DNA from: Planotetraspora sp. A-T 1434
Lineage (GTDB): Bacteria > Actinomycetota > Actinomycetes > Streptosporangiales > Streptosporangiaceae
Assembly (NCBI RefSeq): GCF_025420585.1
Contig: NZ_JAOEGB010000018.1
Location: 1-64,000, forward strand
Reading direction: 5' to 3'
Length of the DNA stretch: 64,000 bases
The notes under the pieces are model-generated. The model had not been told where the DNA came from. It was given only the letters and a program-made list of their open reading frames with translations, and did not search any database. This document shows, one piece after another, positions 2,190 through 11,934 of this stretch (position 1 is the stretch's first letter; each line of letters starts with the position of its first letter). The position numbers were made by a program, and so were the translations under genes.

Positions 2190-2375
2190 CCAGCCCTCCA
2201 GTTCGTGCCAGCCGAAAATCGGCTCCGGGTGAGCATCGGACACGCCGGTATAGGTGAGGTATAGGACCTGGTAGAACGCGATTCCGCGCCAGGGGGGACG
2301 TACGGTTCACTGGACAGACCCCGGTGGGGTTGTGGGCCGCGATGCACTCCTCGAGTGACGCGTGGAGCTGAGAAG

Positions 2376-2418
2376 ACGACGGAGGGCCCGGATCGCGTTG
2401 ATCCGGGCCCTCCGTCGT
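2376..2418. terminator. Strong stem-loop terminator
   Basis: A perfect 18-base inverted repeat (2376-2393 with 2401-2418; arm ACGACGGAGGGCCCGGAT) encloses a 7-base loop. There is no long T run, which is usual for actinomycetes. It lies upstream of the lectin gene's start, so it probably ended a transcript from a gene that has since been lost or scrambled. Confidence 0.7.
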
Positions 2419-2493
2419 TCGGTGTCGGGGGTCAGCCGGTGACTGGGTCGGTCCTGGCTTAAATGCACAGGTGCTGAACGGGGTAGCCGGGTC

Positions 2494-2547
2494 AGCTTCA
2501 CCGACCCCCGCCTGTGCACGGCCATCGTCGACCGGCTCATCTTCTAA
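2494..2547 (+). pseudogene. IS21 IstB-like C-terminal scrap
   Basis: The frame at 2494 reads FTDPRLCTAIVDRLIF then a stop. This resembles the conserved C-terminal block TDPRLC.AIVDRLTFNAH of IstB ATP-binding helper proteins of IS21 elements. A one-base shift continues as NADTWTMSRL. Only about 18 residues are recognisable, so the call is tentative. The N-terminal scrap of an IS21-type transposase at 26993 is consistent with IS21 debris in this region. Confidence 0.4.
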
Positions 2548-2729
2548 TGCCGACACGTGGACGATGTCGCGACTCTGGGCCGGACATACCCGGCGGCTGG
2601 AGGCACTTTCGAAGCGGAGAGTCGACCAACACGATCCGGTCTCGACCATGGGCTGGCGGGGTTCTGGTTTGTACCGTCGAGGTGCGCGGCTCTGCCGAGG
2701 ACCGCGACCGGATGTCCGGCAGGGGTGGC

Positions 2730-3584
2730 ATGATCGGGAATGTGGTGGGACTCGCGGGGCGTGGGGATCTGAAGATGCTGTTCGGGCGGCGGTTTGCGCT
2801 GATGGGGATGATCCATCTGCTGCCGCTGCCGGGGGCGCCCGGGTATCGGGCGGAGGCCGGGATGGAAGCGGCGATCCGGCAGGCGATCCGGGAGGCGCGG
2901 ATCCTGGTCGATGCCGGGTTCGACGGGCTGATCGTCGAGAACGGCGGGGACATCCCGTTCCTCAAGCCCGAGGAGATCGGGCCGGAGACGCCGGCGGCGA
3001 TGGCCGTCGCGGTGGCCGAGGTGGGACGCGCTGTCTCCGTGCCGTTGGGGGTCAACTGCCTGGCGAACGCCGTGGACCGGTCACTTGCCGTTGCGGTGGC
3101 GGGCGGGGGGCGGTTCGTGCGGGCCAATCAGTGGGTGAACGCGTACGTGGCGAACGAGGGGTTCGTCGAGGGACGTGCGGGGGCGGTGATGCGGTACCGG
3201 CGGGCGATCGGCGCGGAGCACGTGACGGTATGGGCCGATGTGCAGGTCAAGCTCGGGGCGCACGCGATCACGGCGGACCGGTCGCTCGCCGAGCAGGCGA
3301 GGGACGCCGCGTGGTTCGGCGCGGACGTGCTCATTGGGACCGGCTCGCGGCTCGGGGACGTGCCCGACGCGGAGCATCTCCGGGTCATCCGGGAGGCGAC
3401 CGAACTGCCGGTGGTCGCGGGGTCGGGGGTGCGTACGGAGAACCTCGCCGGGATCTTCGCGCACACCGATGGCGCGATCGTCGGGAGCTCGATCAAGACC
3501 GGCGGGGTGTGGCACGGCGCTCTCGACGGTGCAGAGTGCGAACGGCTGTGCGCGGAGCGGGACGCCCTTGAGAGCCGGTTATAG
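2730..3584 (+). CDS. BtpA/SgcQ family TIM-barrel protein
   Basis: This 284-residue protein belongs to the BtpA/SgcQ family: GMIHLLPLPGAPGY near the N-terminus, DAGFDGLIVENGGDIPF, the FVRANQWVNAYVANEGF block and a C-terminal GSSIKTGGVWHG phosphate-binding-like end. BtpA was linked to photosystem I stability in cyanobacteria and SgcQ sits in a sugar operon of enterobacteria; the reaction is unknown, though the barrel suggests a sugar phosphate or nucleoside substrate. I prefer the ATG at 2730, which has AGGGG five bases upstream; an ATG at 2712 is possible. The open frame extends much further upstream but without the family's sequence. It ends 240 bases before the P450 operon, which has its own promoter, so common function is possible but unproven. 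Confidence 0.75.
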   Translation: MIGNVVGLAGRGDLKMLFGRRFALMGMIHLLPLPGAPGYRAEAGMEAAIRQAIREARILVDAGFDGLIVENGGDIPFLKPEEIGPETPAAMAVAVAEVGRAVSVPLGVNCLANAVDRSLAVAVAGGGRFVRANQWVNAYVANEGFVEGRAGAVMRYRRAIGAEHVTVWADVQVKLGAHAITADRSLAEQARDAAWFGADVLIGTGSRLGDVPDAEHLRVIREATELPVVAGSGVRTENLAGIFAHTDGAIVGSSIKTGGVWHGALDGAECERLCAERDALESRL

Positions 3585-3613
3585 CCCCTGGAGAAATTGC
3601 GCCATTCAGCCCA

Positions 3614-3643
3614 TTGCGAATATCGGTAAGGCGCTTGTATATT
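3614..3643 (+). promoter_or_regulatory. Predicted promoter of the P450 operon
   Basis: TTGCGA (3614-3619) and TATATT (3638-3643) are separated by 18 bases, a fair housekeeping-sigma promoter in the only AT-rich stretch here. It would give a leader of about 180 bases before the P450 start at 3828. Confidence 0.5.
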
Positions 3644-3648
3644 GAGCC

Positions 3649-3665
3649 GGTCAAATGATTTGACC
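3649..3665. promoter_or_regulatory. Perfect palindromic operator over the P450 promoter start
   Basis: GGTCAAATGATTTGACC is a perfect 17-base palindrome (8-base arms, one central G) placed just after the predicted -10 element, so a bound repressor would cover the transcription start. No regulator gene lies in the operon; the protein that binds is unknown. Confidence 0.6.
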
Positions 3666-3711
3666 GCAGCGTCGCGGAAGCATGGGGCTGGTGCTTGTTC
3701 ATCTCGGTGCT

Positions 3712-3729
3712 CGTTCATCTGGATGAACG
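3712..3729. promoter_or_regulatory. Second perfect palindrome in the P450 leader
   Basis: CGTTCATCTGGATGAACG is a perfect 18-base palindrome, different in sequence from the one at 3649. Half of it (GTTCATCT) is also present as a direct repeat at 3697-3704. It could be a second operator or an RNA hairpin in the long leader. Confidence 0.5.
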
Positions 3730-3827
3730 CATAAGGGGGAGCATGCCACCCATTCCCGCAAGGGATTCGCCTGTTCTCTCCTAGAGTGCCCGCCTGCCCG
3801 AAACCTTTTGGTGTTGAGGAGCAGATC

Positions 3828-5315
3828 ATGAGGCCTGTCGTCTATGTCCCCGTGGCGGCCGCAGGCGCCGCCACCCTGGCCCTGGCCGCGAAGGCCGCGC
3901 GCACGGTACGCGAACGCAGGTACTACGAGAAGCAGGGCGTCGTCTTCAGCAGGACCTATCCGCTCATCGGCTCCGAGACGGACGTGTCCAGCCTGATCAA
4001 CCGGAACAAGACCCGCGACTATCTGTACCTGGACCGGCCCGCCACCGACTTCATCGGCAGCATCCGCGGTTTCGACATCCAGCTTTACGGGGTCAACAGG
4101 AAAACCGCCGAGGTTCTTGTCAACCCCGCCATCACCGGGAAGAACATCGATCGGGACACGCCCGCGCTGTATTCCTTCGGCCAGCTGTCCCCGTCGGCGA
4201 TGACGTTCCAAAAAATAACTACCGAGCATTTCGGCGACCGGAAACGCAATCTCGGAAAGGGTTTTGACCAGGAGCGGATCGGCGGGATCGCCGCCAAGCG
4301 CTCGGCCGAGCTGTGCGCGTCGTTCGGCGGAGGCGCCCCGATCGACCTGAAGCGCATCGTGGGCGACTACACCCAGGACGTCATGGGCGAGTTCGTTTGG
4401 GGCCGGGACGCCATGCGCCTCACGGTCGCCTACAAGGACAAGGCGGGCCGGGTGTCGCGGGTCCCGTTCATGTTCGCGCTGAACGAGACCTTCACCCATC
4501 TGCGCTTCTACTCCAACCGGTTCTGGAACCGGGTCCACTTCCCGGCGGCCACCTGGCCGGTCACCCGCGAGGCGAGGCGGCTACAGCACAACATCCGGCA
4601 GCTGCAGAACCACCTGGCGGAGGTCCTGCGCGGCACCCCCGGCCCGGGGACTGTCTGGGAGCAGGTCGCGCTCGGCAACGAAAAGCTCGGCATTGCGACC
4701 GAGATCATCCGGGACGACCTGCTGACGGCGTCGATCGCCGGTCTGGACACCGTCCAGAACACCATCCTCGCGACCCTCTGGTATGTCCTCCAGCCGGACA
4801 ACGCCAAGTGGCGCCAGGCGATCGCCTACGCCGACGACGAGTCCCGCCGGAACGAGCTGGTCGAGGCGTGCGTCAGCGAGTCGCTGCGGCTCAGCCCGCC
4901 GGGGTCGGTAATCAACAACAAGGTGATCGAGGATCTCGCGATGGAGGTCGAAGGCCGCAAGTACGTGCTGCGCAAGGGCACCCGGGTGATGCCGAACATC
5001 CACGCGGTGCACGCCGAGTACGGCGACGCCTTCGAGCCGGAGCGGTTCCTGCCGGAGTCCAAGGGGGCCGAGCCGTATGTGATGCCGTTCGGCAAGGGCC
5101 GGCGCAGCTGCCCGGGACGCAACCTCGGCATGGTCATGGCGAAAACCTTCGTCGGCCGGTTCCTCACCACCCATCCGGACGCGTGGATCGCCAACACCGC
5201 GGACCGGGACGTCCACTTCAACAACCTGTCCCAGTCCCAGCTCATGATCGTGATCGGCGGGCGCTGGGAGCGGGACGACACCGCCGCGGGCGTCTGCCCG
5301 GTCATGCCCGCGTGA
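3828..5315 (+). CDS. Membrane-anchored cytochrome P450
   Basis: This 495-residue P450 has the I-helix oxygen-binding motif AGLDTV (about residues 304-309, with Val where a second Thr is common), the K-helix ExxR (E351, R354) and the heme loop FGKGRRSCPG with the thiolate ligand C428. The ATG at 3828 has GAGGAG seven bases upstream. Residues 3-22 are hydrophobic, followed by a basic stretch (RTVRERRYYEK), as in membrane-anchored eukaryotic-type P450s; most actinobacterial P450s are soluble and about 400 residues long. The stop overlaps the next gene's GTG, so translation is probably coupled. It should oxidise a substrate made or used by the neighbouring aminotransferase and cyclohydrolase, but substrate and redox partner are unknown. 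Confidence 0.85.
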   Translation: MRPVVYVPVAAAGAATLALAAKAARTVRERRYYEKQGVVFSRTYPLIGSETDVSSLINRNKTRDYLYLDRPATDFIGSIRGFDIQLYGVNRKTAEVLVNPAITGKNIDRDTPALYSFGQLSPSAMTFQKITTEHFGDRKRNLGKGFDQERIGGIAAKRSAELCASFGGGAPIDLKRIVGDYTQDVMGEFVWGRDAMRLTVAYKDKAGRVSRVPFMFALNETFTHLRFYSNRFWNRVHFPAATWPVTREARRLQHNIRQLQNHLAEVLRGTPGPGTVWEQVALGNEKLGIATEIIRDDLLTASIAGLDTVQNTILATLWYVLQPDNAKWRQAIAYADDESRRNELVEACVSESLRLSPPGSVINNKVIEDLAMEVEGRKYVLRKGTRVMPNIHAVHAEYGDAFEPERFLPESKGAEPYVMPFGKGRRSCPGRNLGMVMAKTFVGRFLTTHPDAWIANTADRDVHFNNLSQSQLMIVIGGRWERDDTAAGVCPVMPA

Positions 5316-6292
5316 GCGGGCACCTGTGGCTGCCCTCGGTCGCGGTCTCGCGCGGCGCCGATGACGGCTACGAGCGGCCGGCGCTGACCGGGAACGCCGT
5401 CGGGGACCTCGCCGAGTTCGGCGCGGACGGTATCCAGTTCGGGTTCTCGGTCTTCGAAGGCATGCGGGCCTACGCCGACGGCACGTCGGTCCTCGTCTTC
5501 CGGGCACGCGACCATCACGAGCGGCTGCGTGCGTCGTGCGCGGCGCTGGCGCTGCCGTGCCCGGACTACGAGGTTTTCACTGAGGCGATCGAGCATGCGG
5601 TGTGCGCCAACGACGATGGCGTCACCACGCGCCTGTACGTCCGGCCGATCGTGTTCGCGGCCAGCGGCGACGTCATGCCGCTGCGGGACGGCAGGTTCGT
5701 CTTCGCGGTGCTGGTGAAGGCGTTCGACCCGGTCATCGCGGACCTCGGCGTGCTCGTCGAGGAGCACATGCCGCGCACGGTCCCGATGTTCGCCGCCGTC
5801 AAGACCGCCGGAAACTACACGAGTTCCGCACTGGCGATGCGGGACGCCCACGAGGCGGGCTGCGACACGGTCCTGTGGCTCGACGGCGGAGGCAACATCG
5901 CCGAGTGCACGACCATGAACGTCTTCCTGTTCCTGGACGGCCGGATCGTCACCCCGGGGCTCGGCGCGATCCTGCCCGGCGTCACCCGCGGGACCGTCCT
6001 GGACCTGCTGGCCGAGGCGGGCGAGCCGGTCGAGGAGCGGGACGTCCCCCTCGCGGAGTTGGCCGATCGTCTCGCCGCCGGGGAAAGCGTCGGCGTGTGC
6101 ACGACGTCGACCGCGCTGGGGATCCGGCGCGTCTCCCGCCTGCGCCTCGGCTCCCGCGACCACCGGCTCGAGGCGAAGACGCCGGACGCGTGGCAGGCGA
6201 TGCGGGAGCGGTACGCCCAGGCCACGGAGCGTTTCGCGGAGGCCCCGCACCCGCTGGTCATGGCGCGGTCCCACCTGTTCCGCACCGGTTGA
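5312..6292 (+). CDS. Class IV (branched-chain-type) PLP aminotransferase
   Basis: This 326-residue protein is of the D-amino-acid/branched-chain aminotransferase fold. It has GIQFGFSVFEGMRAY near residue 45, the PLP lysine K164 in AAVKTAGNYTSSA, the block LWLDGGGNIAECTTMNVF after it, and the C-terminal phosphate-binding CTTSTALGIRRV. The start is the GTG at 5312, which overlaps the P450 stop in GTGA. It should move an amino group between glutamate and a 2-keto acid, or act on an aminodeoxychorismate-like substrate. Because it is coupled to a P450 and a cyclohydrolase rather than to ilv genes, it more likely serves a specialised pathway. Substrate unknown. Confidence 0.85.
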   Translation: MSGHLWLPSVAVSRGADDGYERPALTGNAVGDLAEFGADGIQFGFSVFEGMRAYADGTSVLVFRARDHHERLRASCAALALPCPDYEVFTEAIEHAVCANDDGVTTRLYVRPIVFAASGDVMPLRDGRFVFAVLVKAFDPVIADLGVLVEEHMPRTVPMFAAVKTAGNYTSSALAMRDAHEAGCDTVLWLDGGGNIAECTTMNVFLFLDGRIVTPGLGAILPGVTRGTVLDLLAEAGEPVEERDVPLAELADRLAAGESVGVCTTSTALGIRRVSRLRLGSRDHRLEAKTPDAWQAMRERYAQATERFAEAPHPLVMARSHLFRTG

Positions 6293-6316
6293 TCATCCAG
6301 ACAAGATGGGATCCAT

Positions 6317-6925
6317 GTGATTGTTCTTTTGGCGCAAGGGCCGCTGCACACGAAGTACGGCGATTTCACCGAGTACCTGTTCTACGACGGCAAGAGCGAG
6401 TCGATCGCGATCGTCAAGGGGGAGATCGCCGGACGCGAGAACGTGCTGTGCAGGGTCCACTCGCACTGCACGACCGCGCACGTCTTCAACGGCATCGAGT
6501 GCGACTGCCGCGAGCAGATGGCGATGGCACAGGAGAAGATCGACGAGGAGCGCGCCGGGCTCGTCATCTGGCTGGACCAGGACGGCAAGGGCAACGGCCG
6601 CATGGCCGAGCTGCTGACGGCGCGCCTGCGTGACGAGGGAGTCGCCCAGACCGAGGCCTACGCGCAGCTCGGGTTCCAGCGGGACGCCCGGTCGTTCGAC
6701 CGGGCCGCGGAGATCCTGGCTTTCCTCGAGGTCGCCTCGGTCACGCTGCTCACCAACAACCCGGAGAAGGCCGAGGGGCTGGCCGCGTGCGGGATCAAGG
6801 TGGCCGGAACCTTGAGCCTGGCGTTCCTCCCCGACGACAACCCGCTGCTACAGAAGACCTACCGCGACAAGGTCCGGTACCAGAACCACTCCGTCGAGCT
6901 GGCGGAGGACGCCCATGGCCGTTGA
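6317..6925 (+). CDS. Divergent GTP cyclohydrolase II (RibA-like)
   Basis: This 202-residue single-domain GTP cyclohydrolase II starts at GTG 6317. Zinc ligands C51, C62 and C64 are kept with the spacing of E. coli RibA (54, 65, 67), as are the catalytic-region Asp and Arg (D123, R125 in LGFQRDARSF) and LLTNNPEK. Other key positions changed: the position of RibA Tyr105 is Ala102, and the block normally reading YLRQEGRGIGL is WLDQDGKGNGR. In Streptomyces coelicolor a GCH II paralogue lacking this tyrosine releases the formamidopyrimidine intermediate instead of the usual product. So this enzyme may make a modified pyrimidine for a specialised metabolite rather than riboflavin. No other rib gene is nearby. 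It overlaps the Rieske gene by 11 bases. Confidence 0.85.
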   Translation: MIVLLAQGPLHTKYGDFTEYLFYDGKSESIAIVKGEIAGRENVLCRVHSHCTTAHVFNGIECDCREQMAMAQEKIDEERAGLVIWLDQDGKGNGRMAELLTARLRDEGVAQTEAYAQLGFQRDARSFDRAAEILAFLEVASVTLLTNNPEKAEGLAACGIKVAGTLSLAFLPDDNPLLQKTYRDKVRYQNHSVELAEDAHGR

Positions 6926-7274
6926 TCCGATCAAGGTCTGTTCCCTGTCTGACCTGTCCACGGACCAGGGCCGCCGGATCACGTCGGTGTCACCGCCGCT
7001 CGCGGTGTTCCTGACCGTGAGCGGCGAGGTGTACGTCCTCGACGACGTCTGCACCCACCAGGACGCCGCGCTGACCGACGGCTGGGTCGACGACTGCTTC
7101 GTGGAGTGCCCGCTGCACATGTCGCGGTTCGACCTGCGGACCGGAGCCGTCGACTCCTCGCCTGCCGAGCGATCGGTCCGGACGCACCGGGCCGAGGTTA
7201 TCGGCGGCGAGGTCTGGGTGACCCTGTCGGAGGAGGCTCCGAACCTGCCGCCGGGCGTCCGGTCCGGAGCCTGA
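6915..7274 (+). CDS. Rieske [2Fe-2S] ferredoxin-like protein
   Basis: This 119-residue protein is a single Rieske domain. The cluster ligands are C46 and H48 in VCTHQDAALTDG and C65 and H68 in CPLHMSRFDL. It resembles the small ferredoxin subunits of aromatic dioxygenases. A GGAGG site lies six bases before the ATG, inside the cyclohydrolase gene. As last gene of the operon it is the obvious electron carrier, perhaps for the P450, although Rieske proteins are not the usual P450 partners and there is no reductase gene here. Only six bases separate its stop from that of the convergent transporter gene. Confidence 0.88.
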   Translation: MAVDPIKVCSLSDLSTDQGRRITSVSPPLAVFLTVSGEVYVLDDVCTHQDAALTDGWVDDCFVECPLHMSRFDLRTGAVDSSPAERSVRTHRAEVIGGEVWVTLSEEAPNLPPGVRSGA

Positions 7275-7280
7275 TCCCGG

Positions 7281-8519
7281 TCAGGGCTTCGCCGATCCGT
7301 CCTGCGCCGGTGCCGACTCCGGGCTCGCGGCTCGCGCCCGGAACGCGAGCCGGACAGCGAGCCCGGCGACGAGCGCCCAGAAGGCCGAGCTGACGCCCGC
7401 GAGCGTCGTTCCGGAGGCGGCGACCAGGAATGTGACGGTCGCCGCCGTGCTCTCGGCCGGGCCACCGGTTCCGCTGAGCGCCGCGGTCAGGGAGTAGGTG
7501 AGCGTCCCGAGGAGGCCGAGCCCGGCGACGGTGCCGACGACCTCCACCGGGGCGACGGCGAGGAAGCTGGTGAGCGCGGTGGTGCCCGCGGCGATCCCCA
7601 GGTAGGTAATGCCGAACGCCTGGGACGCCTTCCACCGCCGCGCCGGGTCGGGGTGCGACTCCGGCGACGCCGGGAGGGCCGCGCTGATCGCGGCGAGGTT
7701 GACGGCGTGCCCGCCGAGCGGGGCAGCGAGGAGGCTACCAAGGCCGGTGACGCCCATGGCCGCCCGCCACGGCACCTGGTACCCGAACGAGCTCATGATC
7801 GCGACGCCGGGCACGTTCTGCGCGGCCATCGTCACGACGTACAGCGGCAGGGCGATGCCGATCAGCGCCGCCCAGGTTAGGCCCGGAGTCGTCCAAACAA
7901 GCTGTGGCAGCCACGGCCCGTGCAGCCCGTCGCCGGTGGCGGCGAGCACACCGACCACGATCACGGTGACGCCGAACGCAGCGAGGATGGCCCAGCGCGG
8001 TGCCGTCACCACGACGATCAGCCAAGTGAGGAGGATCGGCGCGACCTGCCAGGGATGGGACGCGAGCGCCTTCACCGGCACCAGGCAGAGCTCGACGAGC
8101 ACACCGGCGAGCATCGCCTGTGCGATCGTCGCCGGGATCGCCGACACCAGGGAGCCGAGCCGCGGCCAGAGCCCGGTCAAGGCCACCAGGACGCTCGCGA
8201 CCGCGAACCCGCCGACGGCCGCGGGCCAGCCGCCCGCCACCTGCCCCGCGCTCGCCAGCACGGCGGCACCCGGCGTCGACCAGGCCAGAGTGATCGGCAT
8301 CCGGGTGCGGCGGCTCAGCCAGAGGCTGCCGAGGCCAAGGAAGGCGCAGAGCGCGACCAGCCCGGAGGTCGCCTCGGCCGGGCTCGCGCCGGTCGCCCGC
8401 AGCCCCACGAGGACGACGCCGAAGGTGCTCGTGTAGCCGATGAACGCGATCGCGATCCCGGTGACGACTGGTTGTCCGCGTTGCTCCCGGAGTTCCTGCC
8501 GAAGTTCCACCCGAAGCAC
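7281..8519 (-). CDS. benE: BenE-family benzoate/proton symporter
   Basis: This 412-residue membrane protein has about 12 hydrophobic segments and the BenE signatures: GYTSTFGVVLVGLRATGASPAEA near the N-terminus, AWSTPGAAVLA, and FGYQVPWRAAMGVTGLGSLLAAPLGGHAVNLAAI. The family takes up benzoate with protons, but many actinobacterial members have no benzoate genes near them. Here no ben or cat genes are present; the nearest genes are the convergent P450/Rieske operon. It could therefore move an aromatic precursor or product of that operon. The start is a GTG at 8519, two bases after the stop of an upstream broken frame. Confidence 0.85.
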   Translation of the reverse strand: MLRVELRQELREQRGQPVVTGIAIAFIGYTSTFGVVLVGLRATGASPAEATSGLVALCAFLGLGSLWLSRRTRMPITLAWSTPGAAVLASAGQVAGGWPAAVGGFAVASVLVALTGLWPRLGSLVSAIPATIAQAMLAGVLVELCLVPVKALASHPWQVAPILLTWLIVVVTAPRWAILAAFGVTVIVVGVLAATGDGLHGPWLPQLVWTTPGLTWAALIGIALPLYVVTMAAQNVPGVAIMSSFGYQVPWRAAMGVTGLGSLLAAPLGGHAVNLAAISAALPASPESHPDPARRWKASQAFGITYLGIAAGTTALTSFLAVAPVEVVGTVAGLGLLGTLTYSLTAALSGTGGPAESTAATVTFLVAASGTTLAGVSSAFWALVAGLAVRLAFRARAASPESAPAQDGSAKP

Positions 8520-8520
8520 A

Positions 8521-8780
8521 CTAATCGAGCGCCTTGAGTCGCGCTCGAGCGATCTTCATATTGTCGGCCCAGTAGCCGCCGGAGACGCCGTCCGGTACCG
8601 CCCGCGCCCGATCGGGCGGCCCCAACGGACACCACTCAGCGAAGATCGCGAAAGCGAGGGCCAGAACCTATCTCGGCCGGGCGTAGCGCAGAGCGTCCGG
8701 GTCCACGGCGTCGACACGCTCGGCAGCGTACGGGCGGCTCTGGGAGGCCATGACCTCCAAGAGGATCCGGCCGTCGCGCT
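8521..8780 (-). pseudogene. Unidentified broken reading frame upstream of benE
   Basis: On the benE strand a frame reads SQSRPYAAERVDAVDPDALR, then an in-frame TAG, then AEWCPLGPPDRAR ... GGYWADNMKIARARLKALD and a stop that nearly touches the benE start. The spacing suggests the tail of an upstream gene in a former operon with benE, inactivated by the internal stop. I do not recognise the family. Confidence 0.3.
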
Positions 8781-8936
8781 GTAAGAGCGTAACTAAACAC
8801 CCACGGCTCTTTGTGTCGGCAGGACAGCCGGGCGGTGGCCGTGCCTAGACGATGACGTCGACCACCGGTCTAACGCAGATAAGCAGGGGGAGCCGCCCGG
8901 CCGCGGCGGGAAGTACCCCCAGGGCGGCACCGGCGC

Positions 8937-8967
8937 TATCGCAGATAATCACTCACTATCTGTGATA
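8937..8967. promoter_or_regulatory. AT-rich inverted repeat
   Basis: TATCGCAGATA (8937-8947) and TATCTGTGATA (8957-8967) are inverted repeats of 11 bases with one mismatch, around a 9-base spacer. This is an AT-rich island in a stretch with no intact gene (8520-9240). It could be an operator for the secreted protein gene at 9241 or a relic; no target is certain. Confidence 0.35.
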
Positions 8968-9240
8968 ACAACCCGTGATCATCGCTACCGCTAATTTCTG
9001 CACTCAGGCTCCTCGAAGGCTGTCTTCCCGGCTGAGGCCCCGCTGGTCACCGAACCCGTGGCCTGCAGACCCGTCACCACGCTTAGGGCGTCACAGGGCG
9101 GCCAACGCCTCGGCGTGAGTCTCGTCGGTGCGGACGTCGCGTCCGACTGGACCTGGCCCCCTTGAGGCAGGCCTGCACGCCCGATGAGTGTACGGCCCGA
9201 ACGCGGGCGTCCACTGTCTGACTTCGATGGACGAAAGGAA

Positions 9241-10226: not shown

Positions 10227-11216
10227 TTAGGCGAACAGCCGTGCGGCATCCTGGAACGCAGTCATCAACGCCTGATCGAGAGCCTCGGGGCGGCGGCCTC
10301 CCGCTTGCGCCACGCCTGGCTTGCCTCCAGCTCCGCCTCCGACGACGCGCGCAGCTTCCGTGAGGATCTGCTGCGCCTCGATGCCGCTGTCCAGGACAGA
10401 GTAGGAGACGGCGGCGACCAGCACAGCTTTACCTTCGTGTTCCAGGCCGAGGACCACCGCGGAGTGGCCTCCATGGACGCGGGCCACCGTGTCGGTGGCC
10501 AGGGCTCGCAGTTCGTCAGGGGCGATGCCGGTGACCTTCTGCGCGACGATCCAGCCGCCGCCGGACTGCTGCGCGGTGTCGGCGAGTAGCACGGCCTGGT
10601 GTCGCAGTTCCTCGGCCCGGAGCCGTCCGAGCTCGTCCTGCGCTTCCGCCAGGGCGCCCAGCCGCTTGCGCAAGACATCCGGGGCGTCCTTGGGACGGGT
10701 GCCAAGGAGGGAGGCCACCTGTTGGAGCAGGCGGCGCTCGGAGTCGTAGTAGAGCAGGACGTCCCGCCCGGTCAGAGCCTCGATCCGGCGCAGATTGGAG
10801 CCGATGGACGATTCCCCCAAAACGCGGACGGGGCCGGCGCCGGCGCCGTGGCCGACGTGGGTGCCGCCGCAAAGTTCACGGGAGATATCGCCGATGTCAA
10901 CGATGCGGACCTGGTCGCCGTACTTCTCCCCGAACAGCGCGGTGGCGCCTGCGGCTTCGGCCTCGACGCGGGTGGTGTGCCAGATGCGCACCTCCGGGTC
11001 GTCCATCAGGTGGTCGTTGACCAGTGCCTCGACCGCGGCGAGCTGGGTGGGATCGACTGCGGAGAAGTGCGCGAAGTCAAACCGCAGCCAGCCTGCGTCC
11101 ACAAGGGAACCCTGTTGGCGGGCGTGCTCCTCTTCGGCGGTGACGACCTGTTCGATCAGCGAGGACTGGGCGGTCAGCTCGGGCCAGACGTTGCCGAGGT
11201 TGGCGATCACGCTCGC
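10227..11216 (-). pseudogene. alaS: Alanyl-tRNA synthetase with the catalytic core deleted
   Basis: The C-terminal 300 residues are clearly AlaRS: RFDFAHFSAVDP, the editing-domain CGGTHVGH, the IGSNLRRIEALTG block, a coiled coil, and the DHHA1 end with GGGAGGKPGVAQAGG. Ahead of this is a short piece of the domain that follows the catalytic core (NVWPEL ... TAEEE). The two are joined in frame near 11126, omitting about 200 residues, including the first half of the editing site (HxxxH). The aminoacylation domain is absent. The open frame upstream of 11216 belongs to other scraps. It cannot charge tRNA and probably cannot edit, so I treat it as a relic even though the frame is open. Confidence 0.75.
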
Positions 11217-11289
11217 GGTGGCGGCAGGCAGGACGGGCCCGGCACCCTCGGCGGCTACGTCGCGGGGGAGCCATCGTGTGTGCGCCAGC

Positions 11290-11363
11290 GTCGCCAGGGT
11301 GAATTCGCCGTCGTGGACGCCGCCGATGAAGGCGTCCCACTCCGCCGACGTGTACGGTTCTGC
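11290..11363 (-). pseudogene. DUF397-like C-terminal scrap
   Basis: The sequence PYTSAEWDAFIGGVHDGEFTLA matches the usual end of DUF397 proteins (FTPAEWRAFV.GV.DGEFDL), which accompany actinobacterial XRE regulators. It is fused in frame to the alaS relic and has no start of its own. Confidence 0.45.
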
Positions 11364-11548
11364 TCGTACGCGTGCTGGGTGCACGGGCAAATCTCGCTGG
11401 GCCGGTCGCCCCAGTGGAGGCCGTTGAGCGACCATTTGCGCAGAACGCCAGCTGCGCGCTCGCATCCGTCATAGAAGACGCCGAACGTCGCACGGAACTC
11501 GGCGCCGTCGCGGTTGCCGCAGAGATGGCACGCCCCTTGCTCCCTCAT
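11350..11548 (-). pseudogene. Small cysteine-rich protein, end lost
   Basis: Its ATG at 11548 overlaps the stop of the ThyX relic as ATGA, so the two were translationally coupled. The first 66 residues (ACHLCGNRDG ... YDGCERAAGVLRKWS ... CPC) contain CxxC and CxC pairs, suggesting a small metal-binding protein. The frame then runs antisense-like into the DUF397/alaS debris until 11255. It looks like a phage- or element-type gene; function unknown. Confidence 0.4.
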
Positions 11549-11770
11549 ACCTTCCGCCACTTCGACGGGACCCACGCCCCGGTCTCGGTCACCTCGAAGT
11601 CGCCGAACAGGGCGGCCACCTCGTCCCGCATGATCCGGGCGACCTGCCCGAACACGAGGCGGATCTCCTCCTCGGCGCCATCGGCGGTACGGGTCTCGAT
11701 CACGTGCCGCAAGGTGCGGATGTTCGCCGACCACACCATGCCCGTCGCGACACCTTCCGGGGTTGGAGTG
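11545..11770 (-). pseudogene. thyX: ThyX C-terminal fragment
   Basis: The last 75 residues of the frame 11545-11904 (MVWSANIRTLRHVIETRT, AEEEIRLVFGQVARIM, LFGDFEVTETG) match the C-terminal part of flavin-dependent thymidylate synthase. There the NxRxLRHxIExRT and AEEEIR segments contribute to the dUMP/FAD site. The 50 residues before them do not look like ThyX, so the N-terminal two thirds are gone. It would be inactive as thymidylate synthase. Confidence 0.6.
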
Positions 11771-11902
11771 GCAACCTGGGCAAGAACCGCGCCCGCCGCC
11801 GCGCCCAGCACCGGAGCGGTCGGCGGCTGCAGGCGCTGGACGCCCCCTCCGCATACCTGCCTGTCGCCGTGGGGAGGACGATCGTTACGGGTGGCAAACT
11901 CC

Positions 11903-11934
11903 ATACCGGACAGAATGAGGTTTCTGTCTGGTAT
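11903..11934. repeat. Inverted repeat at the edge of the thyX fragment
   Basis: ATACCGGACAGAA (11903-11915) pairs with TTCTGTCTGGTAT (11922-11934) with one mismatch and a 6-base spacer. It lies where recognisable thyX-strand sequence begins and could be an operator or the end of a lost element. Confidence 0.35.

Follow-up and report, generated by a model that had tools for sequence, protein, structure and literature searches.

A rare, conserved actinomycete operon with a GTP-cyclohydrolase-II-like protein, a cytochrome P450 and a Rieske-type ferredoxin: a candidate purine-opening pathway

To our knowledge, few natural products start from the chemistry of GTP cyclohydrolase II (GCHII). Loss of Tyr105 from Streptomyces coelicolor GCHII, an observation attributed to Spoonamore 2006, reportedly leaves a formylamino intermediate, and the Streptomyces paralogue SCO6655, which we take to carry Met at this position, presumably stops at the formylamino product as well. 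The formylamino intermediate of the GCHII reaction is described in PMC9478397. The nearest described kind of gene cluster is that for pseudoiodinine, where the GCHII-like PsdD occurs with other partner genes: RibD-like, methyltransferase, WD-40 and sulphatase-modifying-factor genes (PMC9911603). With respect to electron transfer, the Rieske-type ferredoxin SpFdx4 of S. peucetius has been described as a native redox partner of the P450 DoxA (PMC12979805).

Here, we analyze a four-gene locus in a 64-kb stretch of DNA, referred to in its full length as the window. A sequence-only reading knew of no described pathway that combines the four genes, and our search agrees: judging by titles and the openings of abstracts among the open-licence papers listed, no paper on a biosynthetic gene cluster with GCHII, Rieske, P450 and aminotransferase genes was found. 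The partner genes named in the accessible part of the pseudoiodinine report were found neither in the operon and its two neighbours nor among ten other proteins of the window. As judged by sequence comparison, the set is a conserved, rare and orphan operon.

Organization and conservation of the gene set

The four genes lie on the same strand and overlap or nearly touch (Table 1): the P450 and aminotransferase genes overlap by 4 bases, the GCHII-like and Rieske genes by 11 bases, and a gap of 24 bases separates the aminotransferase gene from the GCHII-like gene. In a profile search, all four proteins score above the curated Pfam cut-offs. The earlier assignment of the four genes to a single operon at this place stands, as does its placing of the end of benE at a distance of six bases; benE is encoded on the opposite strand.

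Table 1. Positions of the operon genes, neighbouring genes and putative control elements in the window
Feature	Position	Strand	Remarks
P450 gene	3828-5315	+	495 aa; divergent cytochrome P450, weakly hydrophobic N-terminal segment
Class IV aminotransferase gene	5312-6292	+	Branched-chain type
GCHII-like gene	6317-6925	+	Separate clade
Rieske-type [2Fe-2S] ferredoxin gene	6915-7274	+	Dioxygenase-ferredoxin class
btpA	2730-3584	+	BtpA/SgcQ-family phosphate-binding TIM barrel; start at ATG 2730 or close to it, conservation beginning near 2760
benE	7281-8519	-	BenE-family transporter, convergent neighbour
Promoter-like site TTGCGA-N18-TATATT	3614-3643	+	Sigma-70-like
Palindrome	3648-3666		8-base arms; possible operator just 3' of the -10 box

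Transcription of the operon probably begins in the interval that separates btpA from the P450 gene, because the promoter-like site is located there and its TATATT box recurs. One sigma-70-like site is present in 3500-3900 versus a mean of 0.0 in shuffled sequence, and TATATT occurs a single time in the window, counting both strands. The box is found 166-270 bases 5' of the P450 start in three of the related loci described below (L038, L039 and L040), and was not found 5' of the P450 gene in the fourth (L041). The palindrome, CGGTCAAA-TGA-TTTGACCG, was not found as such in any of these four loci; L038, L039 and L040 have a GGTC-containing, non-palindromic sequence after the -10 box, and three tandem 19-base repeats extend over and beyond the -10 box 5' of the P450 gene in L038 (L038:7747-7803), forming a possible operator array. 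A comparison of positions 2300-9100 with known RNA families gave four matches at E values up to 1, none of which reached the gathering score of its family. Across the six genes, dN/dS values between the window and the other loci are 0.12-0.56 (NG86, partly saturated).

Relatives were sought by scanning genome contigs with the P450 alignment and two short peptide patterns, an approach that distant relatives may escape. Of the 64 pattern matches obtained with the P450 alignment, four code for a relative; these belong to Nonomuraea lactucae (L038), Herbidospora galbida (L039, the same locus as L033), Herbidospora yilanensis (L040, identical to L034) and a strain of the Nocardiopsaceae (L041, identical to L035). 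The four genes recur in an unchanged order in each of them, and with the window this amounts to five of the five genomes found to carry this P450. The pairwise identities of the four operon proteins correlate at 0.90-0.98 (ten genome pairs, which are not independent).

In the samples searched, close copies of the P450, GCHII-like and aminotransferase genes were found only together with the set. For the P450, one of 396 genomes of the phylum sample matched at E 1e-30, namely the window's own (at most three candidates were scored per genome), and a profile search at E 1e-8 detected it in 3 of 80 genomes, each of which carries the set. The aminotransferase matched 3 of 60 genomes at E 1e-30, again all with the set. 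Some GCHII match at E 1e-20 is present in 295 of 297 genomes of the order, and identities above 70% were seen in only four of the 297, all of which carry the set; the next protein by score is 46% identical (G270). The exact pattern of the changed GCHII loop (see below) occurs in 4 of 341 family genomes and 3 of 68 genera, a count from which N. lactucae is absent, presumably because it lies outside that sample. Among the 396 genomes of the phylum sample, a looser version of the pattern matched two, the one containing the window and G483; the G483 locus has no GCHII-like start in its list of open reading frames and was taken as a chance match. btpA at an identity of at least 79% was found in 2 of 80 genomes, both with the set, and at E 1e-20 any match was found in 11 of 80. 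Plasmid records contained GCHII matches in 206 cases and P450 matches in 73, all below 60% identity, with none of the P450 matches covering 80% of the query. The P450 and GCHII-like genes have a GC content below that of their own locus in five of five cases, which fits transfer between hosts without proving it.

The sequence-only reading had allowed that the operon could be accidental if close homologues of each gene were scattered over unrelated neighbourhoods and the four were together only here; the samples gave the opposite picture. The GCHII-like protein and the aminotransferase do come from large families, which would make a chance juxtaposition of unrelated genes easier, but the shared order in four of four other genomes and the restriction of close copies to the set in the samples searched rule out such an accidental neighbourhood, to which we assign next to no probability.

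The compounds reported from H. yilanensis include a labdane-type diterpenoid and a benzodioxole lactone; the available part of that report does not mention an alkaloid, pyrimidine, pteridine or pyrazine, and we draw no connection between these compounds and the operon.

The encoded proteins

The GCHII-like protein scores 143.1 bits against PF00925 (GTP_cyclohydro2; cut-off 23.3), but stays below the cut-off of the RibA equivalog TIGR00505 (131.4 versus 205.85 bits). The alignment of the five operon copies included chain 2bz0 from Escherichia coli as well as 26 RibA-type sequences, of which 25 were the best-scoring other GCHII loci and one was the window's own paralogue. All five operon copies keep Arg49, Cys54, Cys65, Cys67, Asp126, Arg128 and Lys154, and all five carry the same replacements: Glu92 to Asp, Arg94 to Lys, Lys101 to Glu and Tyr105 to Ala, whereby the E-G-R loop becomes DGK. 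The EGR loop is present in 26 of the 26 RibA-type sequences and in 2bz0, and Tyr105 in 25 of the 26 and in 2bz0; the RibA-type paralogue L013 (G248:C205) has Met at the Tyr105 position, the residue also ascribed to SCO6655. The roles of these residues are said to go back to Ren 2005 and Spoonamore 2006, and we take the three cysteines to be zinc ligands and Asp126 and Arg128 to be catalytic.

In a phylogenetic tree, the operon copies group at a support of 0.99 and join the G270 protein, which was entered twice (as L007 and L036), at 1.00. Each of the four host genomes G000, G029, G100 and G031 holds a second GCHII match, and riboflavin is therefore probably served elsewhere. An ordinary riboflavin GCHII is ruled out by the loop, the TIGR00505 score and the second GCHII in the four hosts, and the earlier suggestion of a non-riboflavin enzyme is thereby strengthened, given the loss of the loop and of Tyr105 in five of five copies and the separate clade. 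The E92D and R94K changes may indicate a substrate other than GTP.

Two further roles for the GCHII-like protein were weighed. Since GCHII is the entry enzyme of the flavin and related coenzyme pathways, the operon might produce a modified coenzyme, such as a flavin, deazaflavin or pterin analogue, for internal use. This is improbable, because the set is scattered very thinly over the family (4 of 341 genomes) and a scan of 16 proteins detected none of the RibB, RibH and FbiC families. A nucleotide-depleting defence or signalling module is brought to mind by the nearest relative outside the set, which is 44-47% identical and belongs to a cluster with STAND/TPR, caspase and PfkB proteins. We consider such a module very unlikely, given that P450, Rieske and branched-chain-aminotransferase-type enzymes are ill-suited to this task and that none of the six window proteins had a PADLOC match at E 0.001. 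The cluster of the relative itself (L036:6187-12749; G270:C44), in which the sister-clade GCHII is located between a 924-aa STAND/TPR protein and PfkB, caspase and NTPase_1 genes, is probably a conflict-type system using a GCHII-like enzyme, as judged by its gene content; a word search of a paper on conflict systems (PMC7159879) found no mention of cyclohydrolase, GTPCH, GCYH, PfkB or THEP1.

The aminotransferase matches PF01063 (Aminotran_4) with 132.4 bits (cut-off 28.5). Its best solved relative is 3ht5 (1.2e-40), presumably the mycobacterial IlvE, with which the lysine region and the Tyr-x-Arg region align; we take the aligned lysine to be the PLP lysine. The scores are below the branched-chain equivalog cut-offs: 150.3 versus 307 bits for NF009897, and 141.3 versus 250.05 bits for TIGR01123.

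The P450 matches PF00067 with 84.2 bits, and the match is confined to residues 355-461 of the 509-residue frame. The I-helix motif AGxDT, the ExxR motif and the heme-binding motif FxxGxRxCxG are found in five of five copies, and the orthologues are 68-78% identical. Translation probably starts at ATG 3828, located 243 bases 3' of the btpA end, rather than at the first GTG (3786), because the first start codon of the frame falls at the matching place in L033, L034, L035 and L038; in the window, this ATG is preceded by GAGGAG. The assignment is not certain since tblastn similarity extends about eight codons 5' of the ATG in L038 and L040, perhaps reflecting a conserved ribosome-binding stretch. 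The N-terminal hydrophobicity peak is 1.33-1.75 in the five copies, versus 1.11-1.32 elsewhere in the proteins (Kyte-Doolittle, 19 residues), which hints weakly at the membrane anchor that the sequence-only reading had assigned to the P450. The structure model of the P450 (pLDDT 37) was too poor for use.

The Rieske protein (PF00355, 62.6 bits) carries the CxH...CxxH ligands in five of five copies, and its seven solved-structure matches at E 1e-12 are all named as dioxygenase or CarAc ferredoxins. Our search for a client of the ferredoxin covered the PF00848 oxygenase family: no such dioxygenase alpha subunit is present in the operon; G000, G029 and G100 each have one match, on another contig; and G031, which is 99% complete and keeps the Rieske gene, has none. 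A ferredoxin reductase (PF14759) was found in four of the four genomes tested (G000, G029, G100 and G031). From the precedent of SpFdx4 and DoxA, and from the lack of PF00848 in G031, we infer that the simplest client of the ferredoxin would be the P450 of the same operon. In G000, G029 and G100, the PF00848 protein could use the ferredoxin instead.

The btpA and benE neighbours

The BtpA protein scores above the thresholds of the BtpA/SgcQ family (PF03437, 212 bits versus a cut-off of 30; TIGR00259, 195.9 versus 153.4), and below that of the equivalog for Photosystem I biogenesis, NF045918 (158.4 versus 400 bits). A structure model built from nine sequences has a pLDDT of 84.6, and Foldseek matched it to the phosphate-binding TIM barrels ThiE, TrpA, HisF, phosphoribosyl isomerase A, ribulose-phosphate epimerase and KDPGal aldolase. 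Alignment with VIA-align gave: hexulose-phosphate synthase, Z 20.2, rmsd 2.8, 202 aligned residues; MJ1099 with PRPP, Z 19.6, rmsd 2.8, 213 aligned; and dihydropteroate synthases, Z about 19, rmsd 2.9-3.5, 218-231 aligned. The top profile matches in the PDB, namely TrpA, geranylgeranylglyceryl phosphate synthase and HisF, align with residues in the C-terminal half of the protein. The structural matches are ties within a common barrel, and we therefore claim no reaction from them; action of BtpA at the ribose 5-phosphate that the GCHII step would leave in place is a reaction that would fit. Beside five BtpA relatives elsewhere, PfkB-like genes were found in one of five cases, ABC-type ATPase genes in two and LacI-like genes in three, as judged from the starts of the open reading frames.

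In three of the four other loci (L038, L039 and L040), and thus in four of five with the window, btpA and benE flank the set, with tblastn identities of 69-80% for btpA and 79-82% for benE, the latter in the same place; a further comparison put the btpA orthologues at 73-77% identity. The distance between btpA and the P450 gene is about 800 bases in L038, as compared with 231-243 elsewhere. Neither gene lies beside the set in L041, whose genome (G031) gave no benE match at all and has a btpA relative of only 52% identity on another contig. It had been suggested that both neighbours may belong to the operon. They do travel with it in three of the four other loci. However, btpA lies 5' of the recurring promoter-like site and, in the same orientation as the operon, probably forms a unit of its own, and benE, being on the opposite strand, is a conserved neighbour outside the transcript.

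BenE exceeds the TIGR00843 cut-off (209.1 versus 203.4 bits). Together with the closeness of the Rieske protein to dioxygenase ferredoxins, this would suit an aromatic-acid module in which a benzoate-like acid enters through BenE and is oxidized by the P450 and Rieske proteins, with the aminotransferase acting on a keto acid and the GCHII-like protein co-opted for some other hydrolysis. Such a module appears unlikely, as Pfam assigned none of the 26 proteins scanned from the sets and their flanks to a dioxygenase alpha subunit, ring-cleavage or CoA-ligase family, the catalytic residues of the GCHII-like protein are kept, and G031 lacks a benE match.

Other genes were noted around the sets. In N. 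lactucae, a PALP-family gene with a TrpB-like start and a tryptophan-synthase-alpha gene follow directly after benE (L038:13202-15219), and in H. galbida a gene with a methyltransferase domain is located about 2 kb 5' of btpA (L033:2667-3449). On the minus strand of the window, positions 10230-11904 hold a frame with tRNA_SAD and DHHA1 domains that lacks a matched synthetase catalytic domain. The short frame next to it matches only the last part of the ThyX (Thy1) profile; both look like partial or decayed genes.

Proposed pathway and comparison with known systems

Several functional residues are kept in the operon proteins: the zinc ligands and catalytic Asp and Arg of the GCHII-like protein, the aminotransferase lysine, and the P450 and Rieske ligands. 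Based on these observations, we propose, at about an even chance, that the locus is an orphan specialised-metabolite operon whose pathway would start with a purine nucleotide, GTP or a related one, and with the hydrolysis of its imidazole ring; the substrate, product and order of steps are those that we infer as follows. The GCHII-like protein would open the ring and, because Tyr105 is lost, would tend to stop at a formylamino-pyrimidine ribosyl phosphate without deformylation, by analogy with what is reported for the S. coelicolor enzyme. BtpA would then isomerise or remove the ribose 5-phosphate. The aminotransferase would either act on the ring product, with an exchange of amino and keto groups, or provide a 2-keto acid for condensation with the amines of that product, and the P450 would oxidize the product with electrons from the operon's Rieske ferredoxin and a BphA4-type reductase encoded elsewhere in the genome. 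BenE, for its part, would serve as the membrane transporter of either a precursor or the product.

Counted against the purine-opening reading are L041, with neither btpA nor benE beside the set, and the distant btpA of L038. Among the operon, neighbour and flanking proteins scanned with Pfam, no RibD-like gene was found and the only methyltransferase, detected among ten flanking proteins, is the one 5' of btpA in L033; the genes for a more complete pathway are thus not apparent. An apparent set for purine opening, amino-group change and oxidation that is intact in only a handful of actinomycetes suggests that the operon probably makes a small molecule. More tentatively, the product may represent a new natural-product class: a ring-opened purine whose ribose phosphate is stripped or rearranged by BtpA, and which is processed by a dedicated aminotransferase and oxidized by a P450 with its own Rieske ferredoxin. 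If this is true, BtpA-family proteins would gain a role in purine-derived biosynthesis.

Several features make the locus worth pursuing: (i) it is very small, with four genes, or six with the neighbours, and testable; (ii) it offers a dedicated Rieske-P450 pair; (iii) the changed loop of the separate GCHII clade amounts to a clear biochemical prediction; (iv) the operon context could give BtpA-family proteins a reaction; and (v) it dispenses with every partner gene named in the available part of the pseudoiodinine report.

Compared with RibA, the operon GCHII keeps the fold, the zinc cysteines, Arg49, Asp126, Arg128 and Lys154, but is without E92-G-R94, K101 and Y105, scores 131 bits against a cut-off of 206 and forms a separate clade. 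It shares the loss of Tyr105 ascribed to SCO6655, but has Ala at position 105 and further loop changes. The operon aminotransferase has its best solved relative in 3ht5 and keeps the lysine, whereas its score lies under the branched-chain equivalog cut-off (150 versus 307 bits). As with DoxA and SpFdx4, a Rieske-type ferredoxin would serve a P450, but SpFdx4 comes from the suf cluster, whereas here the ferredoxin gene lies within the P450's operon (PMC12979805). Finally, the operon would resemble the toxoflavin and pseudoiodinine systems (PMC9911603) in having a GCHII-like enzyme for a specialised metabolite and not for riboflavin, and differs from them in that a P450, an aminotransferase and a Rieske ferredoxin take the place of their partner genes.
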